Origin: Candidatus Binatus sp.
Lineage (GTDB): Bacteria; Desulfobacterota; Binatia; Binatales; Binataceae
Direction: 5' to 3'
DNA: 34,766 nucleotides
Assembly (NCBI RefSeq): GCF_030646925.1
Contig: NZ_JAUSKL010000012.1
Span: 1-34,766 of the forward strand
This document shows positions 15,994-25,135 of the stretch, piece after piece. Within the stretch, counting starts at the first letter, position 1; every line of letters begins with the position of its first letter. Made by a program: the position numbers and the translations under genes. The notes under the pieces were generated by a model. The model was not told where the DNA came from. It was given only the letters and a program-made list of their open reading frames with translations, and did no database searches.

Positions 15994-16647
15994 GTGGCTG
16001 ACGAGGCGATGAATCGGCTGGGCGTGATGCTGGAGGAGCTCGGCGCGCGCTTCGAGTTGGTGGTCGAAGCAGTCTCGGGATTTGGGGGACGGCTGGACGC
16101 ATTGCGCGACGAAATGTTCGGGCAGTTCGCGGAAGTTGGCGGGCAGATTCGATTTTTGTCGGAGCAAATCGCGGAGAATCGGCGCAGCATCATCGTGACG
16201 CGCGAGGATCTTGGTGCGGAGATAATTCGCGTCGGAGAAGCGCTCGGCCAGGCGCGCGTCGAGCTCCGCGAAGAATTGAGCAACTCGACGAAGCAACTGC
16301 GCGGCGAGATCAAAAGCTCCGCCGAGCAACTTGGGGGAGAGATCAGGGCAGAGATCAAAAGCTCCGCCGAGGAATTACATGGGGAGATCAGCAGCTCGGC
16401 TGATCTGCTTCGCGAAGAAATGAAAGTCTCCGCTGAGCAGCTACGCAAGGAGATGAACTCCTCGGCGACGGAACTTCGCGAAGAGATGAGCAAGTCCACG
16501 AAGGAACTGCGCGCCGAAATGAAGCAGACCAATAAATCGCTGGCCAATCTATCGCGCAATTTCGATCGCTTCGACGATCGAATCACGGTCCAAACCCGCG
16601 ATCAGGATCAGCGGCTCAAAAAACTGGAGAAAAAACGCGCGTCGTGA
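15994..16647 (+). CDS. Coiled-coil protein with 11-residue repeats, function unknown
   Basis: I do not recognise a family. The 217-residue protein is highly charged and almost entirely helical by composition. Residues about 91-182 consist of eight near-regular 11-residue units of the form L-R-(E/G)-E-(M/I/L)-x-x-S-(A/T)-x-(E/Q), with one longer 15-residue unit. The C terminus is basic (LKKLEKKRAS). There is no signal peptide or membrane segment. Hendecad repeats form right-handed or amphipathic coiled coils, as in apolipoprotein-like and phasin-like proteins. It starts GTG 15994, 21 bases after lepB, with GGGGAGA upstream, so it may be the last gene of the lepAB unit. Function cannot be inferred. 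Confidence 0.75.
   Translation: MADEAMNRLGVMLEELGARFELVVEAVSGFGGRLDALRDEMFGQFAEVGGQIRFLSEQIAENRRSIIVTREDLGAEIIRVGEALGQARVELREELSNSTKQLRGEIKSSAEQLGGEIRAEIKSSAEELHGEISSSADLLREEMKVSAEQLRKEMNSSATELREEMSKSTKELRAEMKQTNKSLANLSRNFDRFDDRITVQTRDQDQRLKKLEKKRAS
16264..16539 (+). repeat. 33-base in-frame repeats in the coiled-coil gene
   Basis: The DNA encoding residues 91-182 is built of diverged 33-base units, with recurring gagatcaaaagctccgccga and cgcgaagaaatg-like segments. One unit carries a 12-base addition. Such arrays change copy number easily between strains. Confidence 0.7.
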
Positions 16648-16684: not shown

Positions 16685-16700
16685 GATAGTGACCTTTAAC

Positions 16701-16718
16701 CCGCTACTGAGATGGCGG
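16701..16718 (+). promoter_or_regulatory. Putative PyrR-binding hairpin in the pyr leader
   Basis: CCGCTA (16701-16706) pairs with TGGCGG (16713-16718) in a 6-bp stem with one U-G pair, closing the hexaloop CTGAGA. The apical ACUGAGAUG resembles the known PyrR-binding consensus CCNGNGAGG, with two mismatches. The 3' arm GGCGG can instead pair with CCGCC (16767-16771), which overlaps the terminator stem. This is the arrangement needed for an antiterminator. The reading is inferential and needs RNA evidence. Confidence 0.4.
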
Positions 16719-16731
16719 AAAGGGAAAATCG

Positions 16732-16797
16732 ATGAATCCGTTTTCAAAGTATCCTGGCCGTTCGCGCCGCCGGGATTTTTTTCGGGCGCCGCGATGA
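16732..16797 (+). CDS. 21-codon leader ORF running through the attenuator into pyrR
   Basis: ATG 16732 is preceded by GGAAAGGG about 7 bases upstream, a good ribosome site. The peptide MNPFSKYPGRSRRRDFFRAPR contains six arginines. Its stop TGA (16795-16797) overlaps the pyrR start as ATGA, and the frame runs straight through the terminator hairpin and T-tract. pyrR itself lacks a visible Shine-Dalgarno site, so coupling from this ORF would explain how it is translated. The layout recalls the pyrL leader of enterobacterial pyrBI, where leader translation reaches the attenuator, though the sequence is unrelated. Confidence 0.5.
   Translation: MNPFSKYPGRSRRRDFFRAPR
16751..16782 (+). terminator. 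Intrinsic terminator (attenuator) in the pyr leader
   Basis: ATCCTGGC (16751-16758) pairs with GCCGGGAT (16769-16776) as an 8-bp stem with a single U-G pair and a 10-base loop. It is followed at once by T7 (16776-16782). It lies only 11 bases before the pyrR start, inside the operon leader, so it must be read through for any pyr gene expression. It is thus an attenuator, not an end-of-operon terminator. An overlapping alternative stem (16763-16773 with 16783-16793) would compete with it and cover the pyrR start. Confidence 0.7.
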
Positions 16798-17336
16798 ATC
16801 CCGCGCACACCGTCGTGCTCGACGCCGCGCAGCTTGGCCGCTCGCTCAAGCGTATCGCGATGGAAATCGCGGAGCGCACCGGCGGCGACGATAACCTCGT
16901 GCTGGTCGGAATCGTCCGCCGCGGCGCGACGCTCGCCGAACGAATCGCATCCGAGCTGCAAGCGAACGGCAAACGCCAGGTACCGGTCGGCACGCTCGAT
17001 ATCTCGTCCTATCGGGACGACGGCAAAGGCGCGCCCGGCGATCCGCGATTGATTGGCCGCGACATTCCATTCTCGCTCGATGGCAAGCGAGTCGTGCTGG
17101 TGGATGACGTCCTCTACACCGGGCGCACCGTCCGCGCAGCGCTCGACGCGATCTCCGACCTGGGTCGCGCCGAATCCGTGCAGCTCGCGGTGCTGGTCGA
17201 TCGCGGTGAGCGCGAGTTGCCGATCCGCGCCGATTACGTCGGCAAAAATGTTCAGGCGCCGCCTGGACAGCGCGTGTACGTGCGCCTTGCTGAAGTCGAC
17301 GGGACCGACGCGGTCGTGGTCGGAGAGCGCAAATGA
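16794..17336 (+). CDS. pyrR: PyrR, bifunctional pyr operon attenuation protein / uracil phosphoribosyltransferase
   Basis: In Bacillus and relatives PyrR senses UMP/PRPP and binds pyr mRNA leaders to promote termination, and it often has UPRTase activity. This 180-residue copy matches the usual length (181). GIVRRGATLAERI is the PPi-loop region. DISSYRDD and the PRPP loop VVLVDDVLYTGRT follow, with Asp104 and Asp105. LAVLVDRGERELPIRADYVGKN completes the family signature. ATG 16794 aligns with known PyrR N termini, and an upstream GTG at 16689 would add 35 unconserved residues and read through the leader hairpins. The gene sits right behind the attenuator and 37 bases before the ATCase fusion. 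Confidence 0.95.
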   Translation: MNPAHTVVLDAAQLGRSLKRIAMEIAERTGGDDNLVLVGIVRRGATLAERIASELQANGKRQVPVGTLDISSYRDDGKGAPGDPRLIGRDIPFSLDGKRVVLVDDVLYTGRTVRAALDAISDLGRAESVQLAVLVDRGERELPIRADYVGKNVQAPPGQRVYVRLAEVDGTDAVVVGERK

Positions 17337-17373: not shown

Positions 17374-19326
17374 ATGCCTCAACTCGCGAAAATCGATCTG
17401 GTCTCGATCGAGGATCTGCAGACCTCAGAGATCGATCGCATCTTCGAACTCGCCGACGAGTTCGCCGACGGGCTCGCGCGCGGCCAGCGGATCGCTTCGG
17501 CGTCGGGATTGATCATGGCGACGCTGTTTTACGAACCCTCGACGCGCACGCGCCTAAGCTTCGAGTCCGCGATGCATCGGCTCGGTGGCGGCGTGATCAG
17601 TTCGGCAGACATGCAGGCCAGTTCGGCCGCCAAGGGCGAGAGCCTGGCCGATACCGTGCGGGTCGTGAGTTCGTACGCCGACCTGATCGTGCTTCGCCAT
17701 CCGCACGACGGCGCCGCCCGCGTCGCGGCCGACTACGCGACATGTCCGGTGCTGAACGCCGGCGACGGCAGCCGCGAGCATCCCACGCAGACGCTGTGCG
17801 ATTTGTACATCCTGCGCCGCAAGAAGGGTCATCTGAAGGGGCTCACCGTCGCGCTTTGCGGCGATCTCAAATTCGGCCGCACGGTGCATTCGCTGATCTA
17901 TGCCCTCGCGCGCTTCGGCGCGAATATCGTCGCGGTGCCGACCGCCGGGATGGACGTGCCCGGCTATGTCCTCGAGCGCCTGGCCGCCGAACGCAACTAC
18001 AGTTTTTCCACGGTTACGATGGATGAACTCAAGTCGATCGCGGGCGGGCTCGATGCGCTCTATCTGACGCCGAGCGCGCCGCATCAGATGGCGCTGTTCA
18101 CCGCCGGTGACGAGATTCAGAAAATTCCCAGCGCGGAACCGCCCGCCGCGCTCGACGCCTTTTACGTCACGCGCATGCAGAAGGAACGCATGACCGCGAA
18201 GGACATCAACGCCGGCGACTACGTCCGCTTCGACGCGCGCGCGCTCAAGACCAGCCGCACGCAATCCGCGGTCGTGATGCATCCGTTGCCGCGCACCGAC
18301 GAACTGGCCTACGAACTCGACGCCGACCCGCGTGCAGTTTATTTCGAGCAAGCGGCCGCGGGAGTGCCGGTGCGGATGGCGCTGATCGCGTGGCTGATCG
18401 AAAAGGGCAAGGCGGCGGCGCGTCGTGAAGCGCCCGCGGCTGGCGTTGCGATTCGTTTCAAGGGCGAGGCGTCGCTGCCGCGATGCGCCAATTCTAATTG
18501 CATCTCGCGTTTCGAAGGTGCGTATTTGCGGGCGCGATTCACGCTCGCGCGCGGCGTCGATCCTTCGGCGCTGGCGCTGAAATGCGGCTTCTGCGAGCGT
18601 GAATTGAAAATCGAATTCGTCGGCCACGTCCGCTCGCATCGCTACTATCGCTACGACGACACGCTGCAAGGCTATGTGCGCCAGTGGATCGAAGAAGGAT
18701 CGCTGGCGGTGTTCGAAAGCGTGAAGCAGGCCGAGGAGGGCGGCTACGAACCCTACAAGCGCGGCCCGCAACGCGAAATCATGAAGCCGGACGAAATCGC
18801 GAGCGCGGTCGAGTCGCTGGCGGATCAGATAATCGCGGACCTGCCGGATCTAACCAGCGTATCGATGGTAGGCGTCGTCAGCCGCGGTGCGATTCTCGCG
18901 CTTAGGCTGCGCGATCTAATCGAGCGCAAGACCAGGATTCGGCCGCCGTGCGCTGCGCTGGACGCTTACACTCACGCCGACGCGATGAGCCCGATCGATG
19001 GCGCGGAAGATTTCAACGTCGAAGGCCGCACGATCGTGCTGGTGGACGACGTGATCAACAGTGGATGGACCGTGCAGCGCGCGATGGCCACGATTTGGAA
19101 GCGCGGCCGTCCCGCCGCCGTCAGGCTCGCAGTGCTGATCGATCGCGGCCATCGCGCGGTGCCGATTCGGCCCAACTACTGCGGCAAAAATATTCCGACT
19201 TCGCGGACGGAGCGCGTGCAGGTGAGACTGTCAGCGCCCGGCGTGCATGGAAAAAGCAAAGCGAACGATCGCGTGATGATCTATTCGATCGTCGAGCCGC
19301 TCAAGCAACCGGAGCCCGCCAATTGA
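17374..19326 (+). CDS. pyrB: Aspartate carbamoyltransferase fused to PyrI zinc domain and PyrR-like domain
   Basis: One uninterrupted 650-residue frame. Residues 1 to about 345 are an ATCase catalytic chain, making carbamoyl-aspartate from carbamoyl phosphate and aspartate. It has S56-T-R-T-R60, AAKGESLADT, LRHPHDGAAR, SREHPTQ, GDLKFGRTVHS, TRMQKER and MHPLPRTDE, and all catalytic motifs are kept. Cys371, 376, 404 and 407 (CANSNC...CGFC) match the C-terminal zinc domain of PyrI, but the PyrI allosteric nucleotide-binding domain is absent. After a tyrosine-rich bridge (418-467), residues about 468-650 form a complete PyrR-like phosphoribosyltransferase. It has GVVSRG, LVDDVINSGWT (Asp558, Asp559) and VLIDRGHRAVPIRPNYCGKNIPTS split over its conserved core. 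ATG 17374 fits ATCase N termini; GTG 17341 is possible. The stop overlaps pyrC as TTGA. PyrB-PyrI fusions are known (Thermotoga); I know of no described PyrR addition. Confidence 0.93.
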   Translation: MPQLAKIDLVSIEDLQTSEIDRIFELADEFADGLARGQRIASASGLIMATLFYEPSTRTRLSFESAMHRLGGGVISSADMQASSAAKGESLADTVRVVSSYADLIVLRHPHDGAARVAADYATCPVLNAGDGSREHPTQTLCDLYILRRKKGHLKGLTVALCGDLKFGRTVHSLIYALARFGANIVAVPTAGMDVPGYVLERLAAERNYSFSTVTMDELKSIAGGLDALYLTPSAPHQMALFTAGDEIQKIPSAEPPAALDAFYVTRMQKERMTAKDINAGDYVRFDARALKTSRTQSAVVMHPLPRTDELAYELDADPRAVYFEQAAAGVPVRMALIAWLIEKGKAAARREAPAAGVAIRFKGEASLPRCANSNCISRFEGAYLRARFTLARGVDPSALALKCGFCERELKIEFVGHVRSHRYYRYDDTLQGYVRQWIEEGSLAVFESVKQAEEGGYEPYKRGPQREIMKPDEIASAVESLADQIIADLPDLTSVSMVGVVSRGAILALRLRDLIERKTRIRPPCAALDAYTHADAMSPIDGAEDFNVEGRTIVLVDDVINSGWTVQRAMATIWKRGRPAAVRLAVLIDRGHRAVPIRPNYCGKNIPTSRTERVQVRLSAPGVHGKSKANDRVMIYSIVEPLKQPEPAN

Positions 19327-20687
19327 AAGCGATTCTGCTCAAAGGCGGCAGAGTGATCGATCCCGCGAGCGGAATCGACGAAGTCTGTGACGTGATTCTT
19401 CGCCACGGCGAAATCGAAGCGGTCGAAGCGCTCCTCAGCAACGCACCCGACGACGCTAATGTGATTGACGTCGCGGGATGCTGGGTGATGCCTGGCCTGA
19501 TCGATCCGCACGTACATCTGCGCGACCCTGGTTTTCCGGAAAAGGAAACCATCGCAAGCGGTCTTCGCGCCGCGGCGGCCGGGGGCTTCAGCGCAGTCGC
19601 CGCGATGGCCAACACGTCGCCGGTGAACGACACGCGCGAAATCACCGCCTACATGCTCGAGCGCGCCAAAGGCGTCAGGGCGGCGCGCCTGGTGCCCGTA
19701 TCTGCGGTGACGCGCGGCCTGCGCGGCGTCGAGCCGGTCGATTTCGCCGCGATGATTGAGGCGGGCGCGCGGATGTTCTCCGACGACGGCATCCCGATCG
19801 ACGATCCGGTGATTCTGTCGCGCGCGCTCGAAGAAATATCGCGGCTCGGATTCGCGACGTCGCTGCATGAAGAAGATCGCGCGCTCTCGCGCGATGCGGC
19901 GCTGAACGCCGGCGAAGTCTCGAAGCGGCTGGGCGTGAGCGGCGTGCCCGTGTCTGCCGAAGCGGAGCGCGTGCGGCGCGATCTCGCGCTCGCAATCGGT
20001 TCCGGCGCCGCGGTTCATATTGCGCATGCTTCGACCGCGGAAACTTTCGACTTGATTCGAGCGGCGCGCCATCACGGCGCCCACGTAAGTTGCGAAGTCG
20101 CGCCTCATCATTTCGCGCTCGATGAAACCGCGGCGCTGACTTGGGGTCCAAACGCGAAGATGAATCCTCCGCTCCGCAGTCGCGCCGACGTTGAGGCTGT
20201 CCACGAGGCGATTCGCGACGGCACCGCCGATATGATTGCCTCCGATCATGCGCCGCACGACCCCAAGTCGAAGCAGATGGACTCGCTGGCGGGATACTTC
20301 GGTCCTGGCCGCGAGCCGCCGCGCCTCGATCACGAGCTCGCGAACATCTTTGAGCACGCCGCCAACGGAATCGTCGGACTCGAAACGTCGGTCGGTCTCG
20401 CGCTCGACCTGGTGCATCGATCGTTGATCCAGCCCGCGCGATTCGTTGCGATGATGTCGCTCAATCCTGCGACGCTGCTCCGGCTTGAAGCCGGCACGTT
20501 GGCTCCAGGAGCGGCTGCCGACGTAACCGTGATCGATCCAAATCTCGATTGGGTCGTCGAGCCGGGAAAATTTCTGTCGAAGAGCCGCAACACCCCATTC
20601 GCCGGGAGAAGGCTTCGCGGCAAGGCAATTCTGACTCTGGTCGGCGGTGAAATCGTGTACGACGGAAGGAAGGGCGCGGTTCGATGA
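19323..20687 (+). CDS. pyrC: Dihydroorotase (type I)
   Basis: Cyclises carbamoyl-aspartate to dihydroorotate, the next pyrimidine step after ATCase. The 454-residue amidohydrolase has the zinc-binding DPHVHLRDPG (His63, His65), SDDGIPIDDP, TSLHEEDRAL, VHIAHAST, EVAPHHFALD and the catalytic ASDHAPHDPKSKQ. The order and spacing are those of type I dihydroorotases, which often associate with ATCase. The start is TTG 19323, overlapping the ATCase stop as TTGA, with GGAG 8 bases upstream. The frame is open further upstream, but only by reading through the ATCase gene. The end overlaps carA as ATGA, so the enzymes are translationally coupled. Confidence 0.95.
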   Translation: MKAILLKGGRVIDPASGIDEVCDVILRHGEIEAVEALLSNAPDDANVIDVAGCWVMPGLIDPHVHLRDPGFPEKETIASGLRAAAAGGFSAVAAMANTSPVNDTREITAYMLERAKGVRAARLVPVSAVTRGLRGVEPVDFAAMIEAGARMFSDDGIPIDDPVILSRALEEISRLGFATSLHEEDRALSRDAALNAGEVSKRLGVSGVPVSAEAERVRRDLALAIGSGAAVHIAHASTAETFDLIRAARHHGAHVSCEVAPHHFALDETAALTWGPNAKMNPPLRSRADVEAVHEAIRDGTADMIASDHAPHDPKSKQMDSLAGYFGPGREPPRLDHELANIFEHAANGIVGLETSVGLALDLVHRSLIQPARFVAMMSLNPATLLRLEAGTLAPGAAADVTVIDPNLDWVVEPGKFLSKSRNTPFAGRRLRGKAILTLVGGEIVYDGRKGAVR

Positions 20688-21880
20688 ATACCCGGCGCGA
20701 GGCGATTCTGGCGCTCGCCGACGGCAGAATCTTTCGCGGGCGCGCGTTCGGCGCGATCGGCGAGACGGTCGGTGAAGTCGTATTCAACACCGCGATGACC
20801 GGCTACCAGGAAGTGCTCACCGACCCGTCGTACAGGGGCCAACTCGTCTGCATGACCTATCCGCAAATCGGCAACGTCGGAACCAACGCCGAGGACGTTG
20901 AGTCGCGACGCGTATTTGTCGACGGATTCATCGTGAAGGAATACCTCGAGCGCCCGTCTAACTGGCGCGCGCAGATGGCGCTCGGCGAGTATCTCGAAGC
21001 AGCGCGCGTGGTCGGAATCGAAGGCATCGACACGCGAGCGCTGGTGCGTCATTTGCGCACGCATGGCGCTCAGGAGGGCGTCATCTCGAGCGTCGATCTG
21101 GATCCGGCGTCGCTGGTCGCCAAAGCGAAGGCATCGCCAGGATTGGTCGGCCGCGATCTCGTGAAGGAAATCACTTGCGCGGAGCCCTATGATTGGGAGG
21201 TCGGCGATTGGGAACTGGGCTCCGGCTACCGGGTTGCGAGCAAAGCGTCGCTCGCCGGCGCGCCGATGGTGGTCGCGCTCGATTACGGAATCAAGCTCAA
21301 CATTCTGCGACGGCTGGTATCGACCGGCTTTCGCGTGAAGGTACTGCCGGCCGGATTTAGCGCGGAGCAGATTCTGTCGTACGATCCCGACGGCATCTTT
21401 CTTTCCAACGGACCCGCCGATCCGGCGGCGTTGCCGTATGCGCGCGATGCGGTCGCAGGCGTGCTCGGCAAGAAACCGGTTTTCGGAATCTGCCTCGGTC
21501 ATCAGATTCTCGGACTCGCGCTTGGCGGCAAAACCTATAAGCTCGATTTCGGGCATCACGGCGCGAATCATCCGGTGATGGATTTGCGCACGCGCCGCGT
21601 CGAAATCACGTCGCACAATCATGGCTTCGCGGTCGAGTCGGAATCGCTCGCGGGGCGGGCTGAACTGTCGCATCTGAATCTCAACGACAAAACCCTCGAG
21701 GGGCTCCGCGGAACCGGCGTGCCGTTTTTTTCGGTGCAGTATCATCCCGAAGCATCGCCCGGCCCCCACGATTCGAGTTACCTCTTTTCGCGCTTCAAAA
21801 AATTGATCGAGGCATTTCCGCGCTTTGGCGCGGACGCGCTCGATCGAATCGTTGCGGATGAGCGTGCCGAACAGCGATGA
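20684..21880 (+). CDS. carA: Carbamoyl-phosphate synthase small (glutaminase) subunit
   Basis: Hydrolyses glutamine and passes ammonia to CarB for carbamoyl phosphate synthesis. The 398-residue protein has the CarA-specific N-terminal domain (GETVGEVVFNTAMTGYQEVL, EGIDTRALVRHLR) and a class I glutamine amidotransferase domain. Its nucleophile is Cys270 in GICLGHQ, and His and Glu lie in QYHPEASPGPHD. Length is close to E. coli CarA (382). ATG 20684 overlaps the pyrC stop as ATGA. It lies 48 bases before carB. Because the pyrimidine operon carries it, supply of carbamoyl phosphate for ATCase is co-regulated, although arginine synthesis also uses it. Confidence 0.97.
   Translation: MNTRREAILALADGRIFRGRAFGAIGETVGEVVFNTAMTGYQEVLTDPSYRGQLVCMTYPQIGNVGTNAEDVESRRVFVDGFIVKEYLERPSNWRAQMALGEYLEAARVVGIEGIDTRALVRHLRTHGAQEGVISSVDLDPASLVAKAKASPGLVGRDLVKEITCAEPYDWEVGDWELGSGYRVASKASLAGAPMVVALDYGIKLNILRRLVSTGFRVKVLPAGFSAEQILSYDPDGIFLSNGPADPAALPYARDAVAGVLGKKPVFGICLGHQILGLALGGKTYKLDFGHHGANHPVMDLRTRRVEITSHNHGFAVESESLAGRAELSHLNLNDKTLEGLRGTGVPFFSVQYHPEASPGPHDSSYLFSRFKKLIEAFPRFGADALDRIVADERAEQR

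Positions 21881-21928: not shown

Positions 21929-25135
<3,207 letters not shown>

Follow-up and report, generated by a model that had tools for sequence, protein, structure and literature searches.

Aspartate transcarbamoylase (ATCase) is the textbook allosteric enzyme. Why, then, should an ATCase be joined in a single chain to a domain that resembles PyrR, the gene regulator of its own pathway, and what might control such an enzyme when the nucleotide domain of PyrI is missing? These questions are raised by a gene at positions 17374-19326 (+ strand) of the window, by which is meant the whole stretch of 34,766 nucleotides of Candidatus Binatus DNA that was analysed. The gene runs from an ATG at 17374 to a TGA at 19324-19326 and encodes 650 amino acids with no internal stop. 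The reading favoured here, to which a probability of a little under 0.6 is given, is that the product would be an allosteric class-B-type ATCase in which a domain derived from PyrR, but no longer active as an enzyme or RNA binder, has taken the place of the PyrI nucleotide domain. The classes referred to are those described in PMC4581275 and PMC6022934, in which class A has a dihydroorotase partner, class B a regulatory chain that is either fused or separate, and class C the catalytic trimer only.

The fused chain and its operon

The chain consists of an ATCase, a PyrI-type zinc domain, a conserved 52-residue linker and a PyrR-like phosphoribosyltransferase (PRTase), in that order (Table 1). 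Four Pfam families pass their cut-offs and represent, from the N to the C terminus, the carbamoyl-phosphate domain of ATCase, its aspartate domain, the PyrI zinc domain and the phosphoribosyltransferase. Thus OTCace_N covers residues 8-148 (E 9e-46), OTCace has its best stretch at residues 260-341, PyrI_C (PF02748) covers residues 370-413 with all four cysteines present (E 5e-7, 29.9 bits against a cut-off of 23.4), and Pribosyltran covers residues 475-599 (42.7 bits against a cut-off of 26.3). AlphaFold2 models of the full protein (three rows, pLDDT 33) and of the PRTase alone (single sequence, pLDDT 36) were too poor to use.

Table 1. Parts of the fused gene and neighbouring pyrimidine genes, with positions in the window.
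Feature	Residues	Positions	Strand	Evidence or remark
ATCase catalytic chain	1-345	17374..18408	+	TIGR00670, 292 bits, cut-off 236.95
Variable linker	346-368	18409..18477	+	346-366 without any invariant column
PyrI-type zinc domain	369-415; Cys 371, 376, 404, 407	18478..18618	+	PyrI_C above cut-off
Conserved linker	416-467	18619..18774	+	10 of 52 columns invariant in 37 fusions
PyrR-like PRTase domain	468-620	18775..19233	+	Pribosyltran E 5e-11; PyrR structures
Free full-length pyrR		16689..17336	+	NF003549, 214.8 bits, cut-off 138; directly upstream
pyrC (dihydroorotase)		19323..20687, start approximate	+	Directly downstream; frame ending 20687
carA (carbamoyl phosphate synthase small subunit)		20684..21880	+	Open reading frame
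carB (carbamoyl phosphate synthase large subunit)		21929..25135	+	Open reading frame

Residue counts given below refer to 37 aligned fusions, a set that leaves out loci cut by contig ends (L029, L063, L064), loci with frame breaks (L061, L062) and duplicates or near-copies (L031, L032, L065); two relatives that carry the zinc domain but no PRTase, L053 and L054, are handled apart. The other 36 fusions are 47-87% identical to that of the window. Judged by its sequence the catalytic part is an aspartate transcarbamoylase, passing the TIGR00670 cut-off and keeping the active-site residues, with the equivalents of E. coli S52-R56, K84, R105, H134, Q137, R167, R229 and Q231 identical in all 37. The initial annotation was therefore right to describe one open frame with ATCase active-site motifs, and also to see in it the cysteine pattern of a PyrI zinc domain: the spacing is C371-x4-C-x27-C-x2-C407, the PyrI_C model scores above its cut-off and all four cysteines are found in 37/37 fusions. 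Residues C371, N373 and C376 align with PyrI Cys109, Asn111 and Cys114, in a match that is itself weak (E 0.05). A separate feature of the catalytic part is an insert of some 36 residues (18061-18171, residues about 230-266) that lies before the TR-x-QKER motif and has a conserved TP..PHQ..LF pattern; it is absent from E. coli PyrB and from L054 and present in L053.

The conserved linker bears a weak likeness to the metal-binding hairpin of Ada, without the cysteines of Ada. Sub-threshold Pfam matches to Ada_Zn_binding occur in the relatives L053 (E 0.055) and L034 (E 0.021), and no such match is found in the window's own linker or in that of L033. Within the genus (seven sequences giving 21 pairs, of which 20 were usable for the linker) dN/dS is 0.11 for the ATCase, 0.25 for the zinc domain, 0.06 for the conserved linker (18619-18774) and 0.16 for the PRTase, so that the linker has the lowest value among the four parts compared. 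All parts of the fusion are under purifying selection.

The nucleotide domain of PyrI (PF01948) is not detected in the fused protein at Pfam E-values up to 1, nor in any of 145 genomes of the class, the window's own included, in a search whose control was positive in 7 of 14 named genomes. This agrees with the earlier statement that the domain is missing, and a separate copy elsewhere in the genome is rejected because PF01948 is absent from it. If class B is defined by PF01948 in the gene or in the genome, the fused ATCase falls outside that class, the domain having been found in 0 of the 145 class genomes.

The fused gene lies in a row of genes on the + strand in the order pyrR, fused pyrB, pyrC, carA and carB, the last three of which are named putatively, by recognition of their sequences. 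The gap between the stop of the free pyrR and the ATG of the fusion is 37 bases. A repetitive protein of 217 residues, probably a coiled coil, is encoded at 15994-16647 between a lepB-like gene and pyrR. A known RNA leader in the window was considered and rejected, there being no match to any known Rfam family at the gathering threshold.

What the fused domain keeps and loses of PyrR

Matches to PyrR proteins of solved structure (E down to 2.5e-26), the phosphate loop and the hood all support placing the C-terminal part with PyrR. The fused protein nevertheless scores 133.4 bits (E 6e-39) with the NCBIfam PyrR model NF003549, slightly below the cut-off of 138. What, then, has changed? The comparison was made with 55 free PyrRs from the same class (E under 1e-38, near-full cover), a set biased towards conserved PyrRs. 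Ten residues, D558, D559, V560, G564, T566, D590, R591, G592, P597 and G604, are identical in all 37 fusions and all 55 free PyrRs, and Y602 is the same in every fusion. The PRPP-loop acids Asp558 and Asp559, to which attention had been drawn at the outset, are thus present in 37/37, and the phosphate loop together with the hood (DRGH..PI.PNY.GK) belongs to the best-conserved parts of the domain.

The flexible loop in PyrR, with its YRDD motif, serves catalysis. The motif is intact in 55/55 free PyrRs and in none of the 37 fusions, 19 of which still have an Asp at its first Asp position. Arginine at position 481, presumably an RNA-binding residue of PyrR, is found in 55/55 free PyrRs and in one fusion; the phosphate-loop arginine at 565 has become tryptophan in 35/37, that at 568 glutamine in 32/37, and arginine at 504 is retained in 16/37 fusions as against 50/55 free PyrRs. 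The fused set has near-invariant residues of its own, N562, W565, W575, N601 and Y637. The initial annotation, which called the domain complete, needs correction here, since YRDD is intact in 0/37; nor is the domain likely to be an intact PyrR or uracil phosphoribosyltransferase (UPRTase), both of which were rejected on the loss of YRDD and of the arginines. In comparison with the PyrR of Bacillus, or with the free PyrR of the same operon, what is seen is a member of the same PRTase family that is without the YRDD loop and several invariant arginines, that has acquired near-invariant residues of its own and that is joined to an ATCase.

The loss of the loop and of arginines that are invariant in free PyrRs makes both UPRTase activity with PRPP and PyrR-style RNA binding unlikely for the fused domain. 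On the residues retained, a nucleotide bearing a 5'-phosphate could still bind. Taken together, the dN/dS of 0.16 and the residues changed with respect to free PyrRs indicate that the PRTase domain is in use, but otherwise than in PyrR. Yet the variability of R504 and the replacement of the phosphate-loop arginine by tryptophan also mean that the domain may bind ligand only weakly or not at all.

Alternatively, the PRTase might be only a structural scaffold that dimerises, holds the catalytic trimers and stabilises or activates the ATCase with no sensing of a ligand. The missing YRDD loop, the variable R504 and the change of R565 to tryptophan all fit such a role, as does the stronger constraint on the linker than on the PRTase (dN/dS 0.06 versus 0.16). 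There is also a precedent, in that the class A ATCase of Pseudomonas aeruginosa is described as needing an inactive dihydroorotase for activity and assembly (PMC7053772). That system resembles the fusion in having a degenerate enzyme as the partner of ATCase, and differs from it in that the partner belongs to another family and the chains are separate. What speaks against a scaffold is that the phosphate loop and hood are conserved beyond the needs of one, and on balance we think it unlikely, with roughly a quarter of the weight going to it.

A different role for the same fold would be to pair with the free PyrR, and so to couple the enzyme to the control of operon expression. PyrR forms dimers, and the gene for the free protein lies directly upstream of the fusion not only in the window but also in the five fused loci of families f2 and f7 that were read. 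The two proteins are, however, only 37% identical between fused PRTase and adjoining PyrR, free PyrR is found in families of the class that have no fusion, and the window holds no known Rfam RNA family; such pairing is improbable. More improbable again is a bifunctional enzyme in which a working UPRTase would join pyrimidine synthesis to uracil salvage. The family match and the PRPP-loop acids, kept in 37/37, are what would be expected of it, but YRDD, present in every one of the 55 free PyrRs, is present in no fusion, R504 varies, the score is below the PyrR cut-off and a free PyrR is encoded next door.

Docking residues, proposed assembly and known systems

How might a PyrR-derived domain act on an ATCase? 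In E. coli the catalytic residue Glu109 is described as bonding Asn111 of PyrI in the R state, replacement of Asn111 as abolishing both homotropic and heterotropic effects, and Lys164-Glu239 as another key switch (PMC6056424). The position of Glu109 is acidic in 37/37 fusions (33 Asp, 4 Glu) and in both zinc-only relatives, and is Ser or Ala in 14/14 free ATCases of the class. Similarly, the position of Lys164 holds Lys or Arg in 37/37 fusions and 2/2 zinc-only relatives, and Leu or Val in 14/14 free class ATCases. Asn111 of PyrI is retained in 35/37 fusions and Asn113 in 26/37, the position of Arg113 is Arg in 31/37 and otherwise Gln or Lys, and that of Glu239, where the alignment follows the long insert, is acidic in just 19/37. 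The residues kept are consistent with a zinc domain that docks as in E. coli and with trimers that face each other. They could also reflect inheritance alone. In L055 and L056, the two relatives read in which PyrI is a separate protein, position 109 is Lys and position 164 is either Glu or Val, and these docking markers are therefore not required by every PyrI-bearing enzyme.

In class B enzymes, as described in PMC4581275 and PMC6022934, PyrI dimers link the trimers. Given that PyrR itself dimerises, six fused chains could rebuild this plan of two trimers and three dimers. In the arrangement that we propose for the allosteric, class-B-type ATCase, the zinc domain would sit on the carbamoyl-phosphate domain as it does in E. 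coli, and the PRTase domains would pair as dimers such that three dimers hold two catalytic trimers, the whole being built from six copies of one chain. A 5'-phosphorylated nucleotide bound in the former PyrR site would then shift the enzyme between states of low and high activity, the likeliest ligand being UMP or UTP, perhaps opposed by a purine nucleotide. The outcome would be feedback control of the committed pyrimidine step by the fused enzyme, with its expression governed by the free PyrR next door.

Taken to its full extent, this proposal would add a fourth class to the bacterial ATCases, with two trimers joined by dimers of a catalytically dead PyrR in an assembly of six identical chains, and a UMP or UTP signal, perhaps with a purine signal, passing through the PyrI-type zinc adaptor. 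Once the original sensor had been lost, the same allosteric machine would have been put together again around an unrelated one, recruited from the regulator of the pathway's own genes. This stronger claim is tentative, and we would put it somewhat short of an even chance.

The nearest known system is PyrB-PyrI of E. coli (class B), which falls with the fusion on one side of the ATCase tree, has the zinc domain and shares in kind the residues Glu109/Asn111 and Lys164. The fusion differs from it in being one chain, in having no PyrI nucleotide domain and in the addition of the PyrR-like domain; moreover, its zinc domain precedes the sensor, where that of PyrI comes after. PyrB-PyrI of Thermotoga maritima, going by the title of a paper cited in PMC4581275, is similar in that catalytic and regulatory parts are in one chain. 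In the search controls the T. maritima genome is positive for both parts of PyrI, so the nucleotide domain is present there. We know of no PRTase in that protein.

What is new is probably an ATCase with a new, PyrR-derived regulatory domain. The initial annotation knew of PyrB-PyrI fusions but not of the three-part form, and in keeping with this no title listed from an open-licence library concerns a PyrR-ATCase fusion, which is weak evidence of absence; the words "pyrimidine" and "carbamoyl" are both missing from the main text of the paper on Binatota genomes. If the reading is true, a gene regulator has been turned into the effector domain of an enzyme, and a classic enzyme has come under a new form of control. 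A natural replacement of the sensor would also test how general the coupling through zinc adaptor and trimer-trimer contacts is, and whether it can work with a different dimeric sensor. The question is directly testable, because the zinc-only relatives offer a possible before-state for comparison.

Distribution and history

The architecture search suggested at the start shows that the three-part fusion recurs. It is one open frame in 38 of the 58 genomes compared, which are that of the window and those of 57 relatives; the 38 comprise 33 of the 36 in the window's family, one of them cut at its N terminus by a contig end, and 5/5 sampled from two other families (G036 and G049; G041, G047 and G053). 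In one of the three exceptions in the family contig ends split the gene; in the other two the frame is broken within the PRTase part, near residue 497 in G018 and near residue 525 in G033, and neither break falls between residues 407 and 470, where a stop or frameshift in relatives was to be looked for. A false join through sequencing or assembly error, which the breaks in 2 of 36 family genomes might bring to mind, is rejected as having practically no chance of being correct, with one open frame in 38/58 related genomes, within the family and beyond it, and dN/dS well below 1 throughout. The fusion is absent from 17 of the 58 genomes; 16 of these have a free ATCase at 38-43% identity and G056 has a weaker match at 29%.

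A profile of the zinc-linker-PRTase part (287 positions, with a match counted at at least 94% of the length) is found near full-length in 63 of 148 class genomes, namely in 39/41 of family f1, 18/25 of f2 and 6/6 of f7. Among the matches listed, near-complete ones are confined to these three families of the class, and the 76 genomes of other families have matches of PyrR length only (E no better than 4.5e-49) or none. In G018, G033, G508 and G512 the profile is matched in pieces or in part. Across the phylum a zinc-linker profile is positive in 11 of 395 genomes, ten from fusion families and G060. A single-protein scan of named genomes, the reach of which is close relatives, gave a homologue in Candidatus Binatus soli (80% identity) and a second and last locus in a metagenome-assembled genome titled Deltaproteobacteria (79%). 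In a plasmid collection no three-part fusion is apparent among the best 10 of 171 matching records; of these ten, four have separate pyrB and pyrR by annotation, two more are unannotated two-piece matches, and four cover the ATCase part, one of them with a zinc domain.

Additional PRTase-like pieces were observed. Many f2 genomes have three PRTase matches, and G029 has a second piece (contig 18, 3987-4439) that matches the fused PRTase only (residues 498-649, 69% identity) and is perhaps a partial copy or contamination. On another contig of G049 there is a second free PyrR (L038, 1101-1739), whose branch in the PRTase tree is very long.

From where did such an enzyme arise? The PyrI zinc model is positive in 18 of the 395 phylum genomes, 17 of them above the cut-off; G237, G357, G374 and G428 were left out of the locus comparison, and a complete PyrI is encoded separately in G082 and G156. 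In G060 and G091, from two other lineages of the phylum, the frames of the zinc-only relatives (L053, 480 residues, and L054, 426 residues, respectively) encode, as the fusion does, an ATCase and then a PyrI-type zinc domain within a single chain, and end there with no PRTase. L053 carries the beginning of the conserved linker. The PyrI nucleotide domain was not found in either genome. No PyrR match was found in G060, a genome that is 84% complete, and that of G091 is on a different contig.

The ATCase tree, built with 13 of the 37 fusions and with free ATCases from 14 of the 17 non-fused class genomes, places the 13 fusions together with the two zinc-only enzymes (99/95), and this group beside three PyrI-associated PyrB proteins (98/93), with the 14 free class ATCases far away (100/100). 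Support for the branch that unites all fusions is only 73/78, and the branch of L054 is long. In the tree of PRTases a single branch (SH-aLRT 99) separates the fused domains from the others, at a place where long branches meet.

The existence of zinc-only ATCases makes a two-step origin probable, in which the PyrI sensor would have been lost first and PyrR added later. In the simplest history, a PyrI-type ATCase would have had the zinc part fused to it and the nucleotide part lost, prior to gain of the PyrR domain. The earlier suggestion that the sensor had been swapped for a PyrR fold is thus upheld in part: the fusion is conserved and the PyrI nucleotide domain is not found, but the change was probably not a single step. 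That the zinc-only relatives likewise show no PyrI sensor counts against the favoured reading.

A further zinc-only ATCase occurs in Acetoanaerobium noterae (L075, 1549-2622), where a chain of 357 residues has a C-terminal zinc domain and neither a PyrI nucleotide domain nor a PRTase, and where the gene is directly upstream of a pyrC-like frame. The record, from Clostridia, is catalogued as a plasmid, but its size of 2.6 million bases suggests a chromosome.
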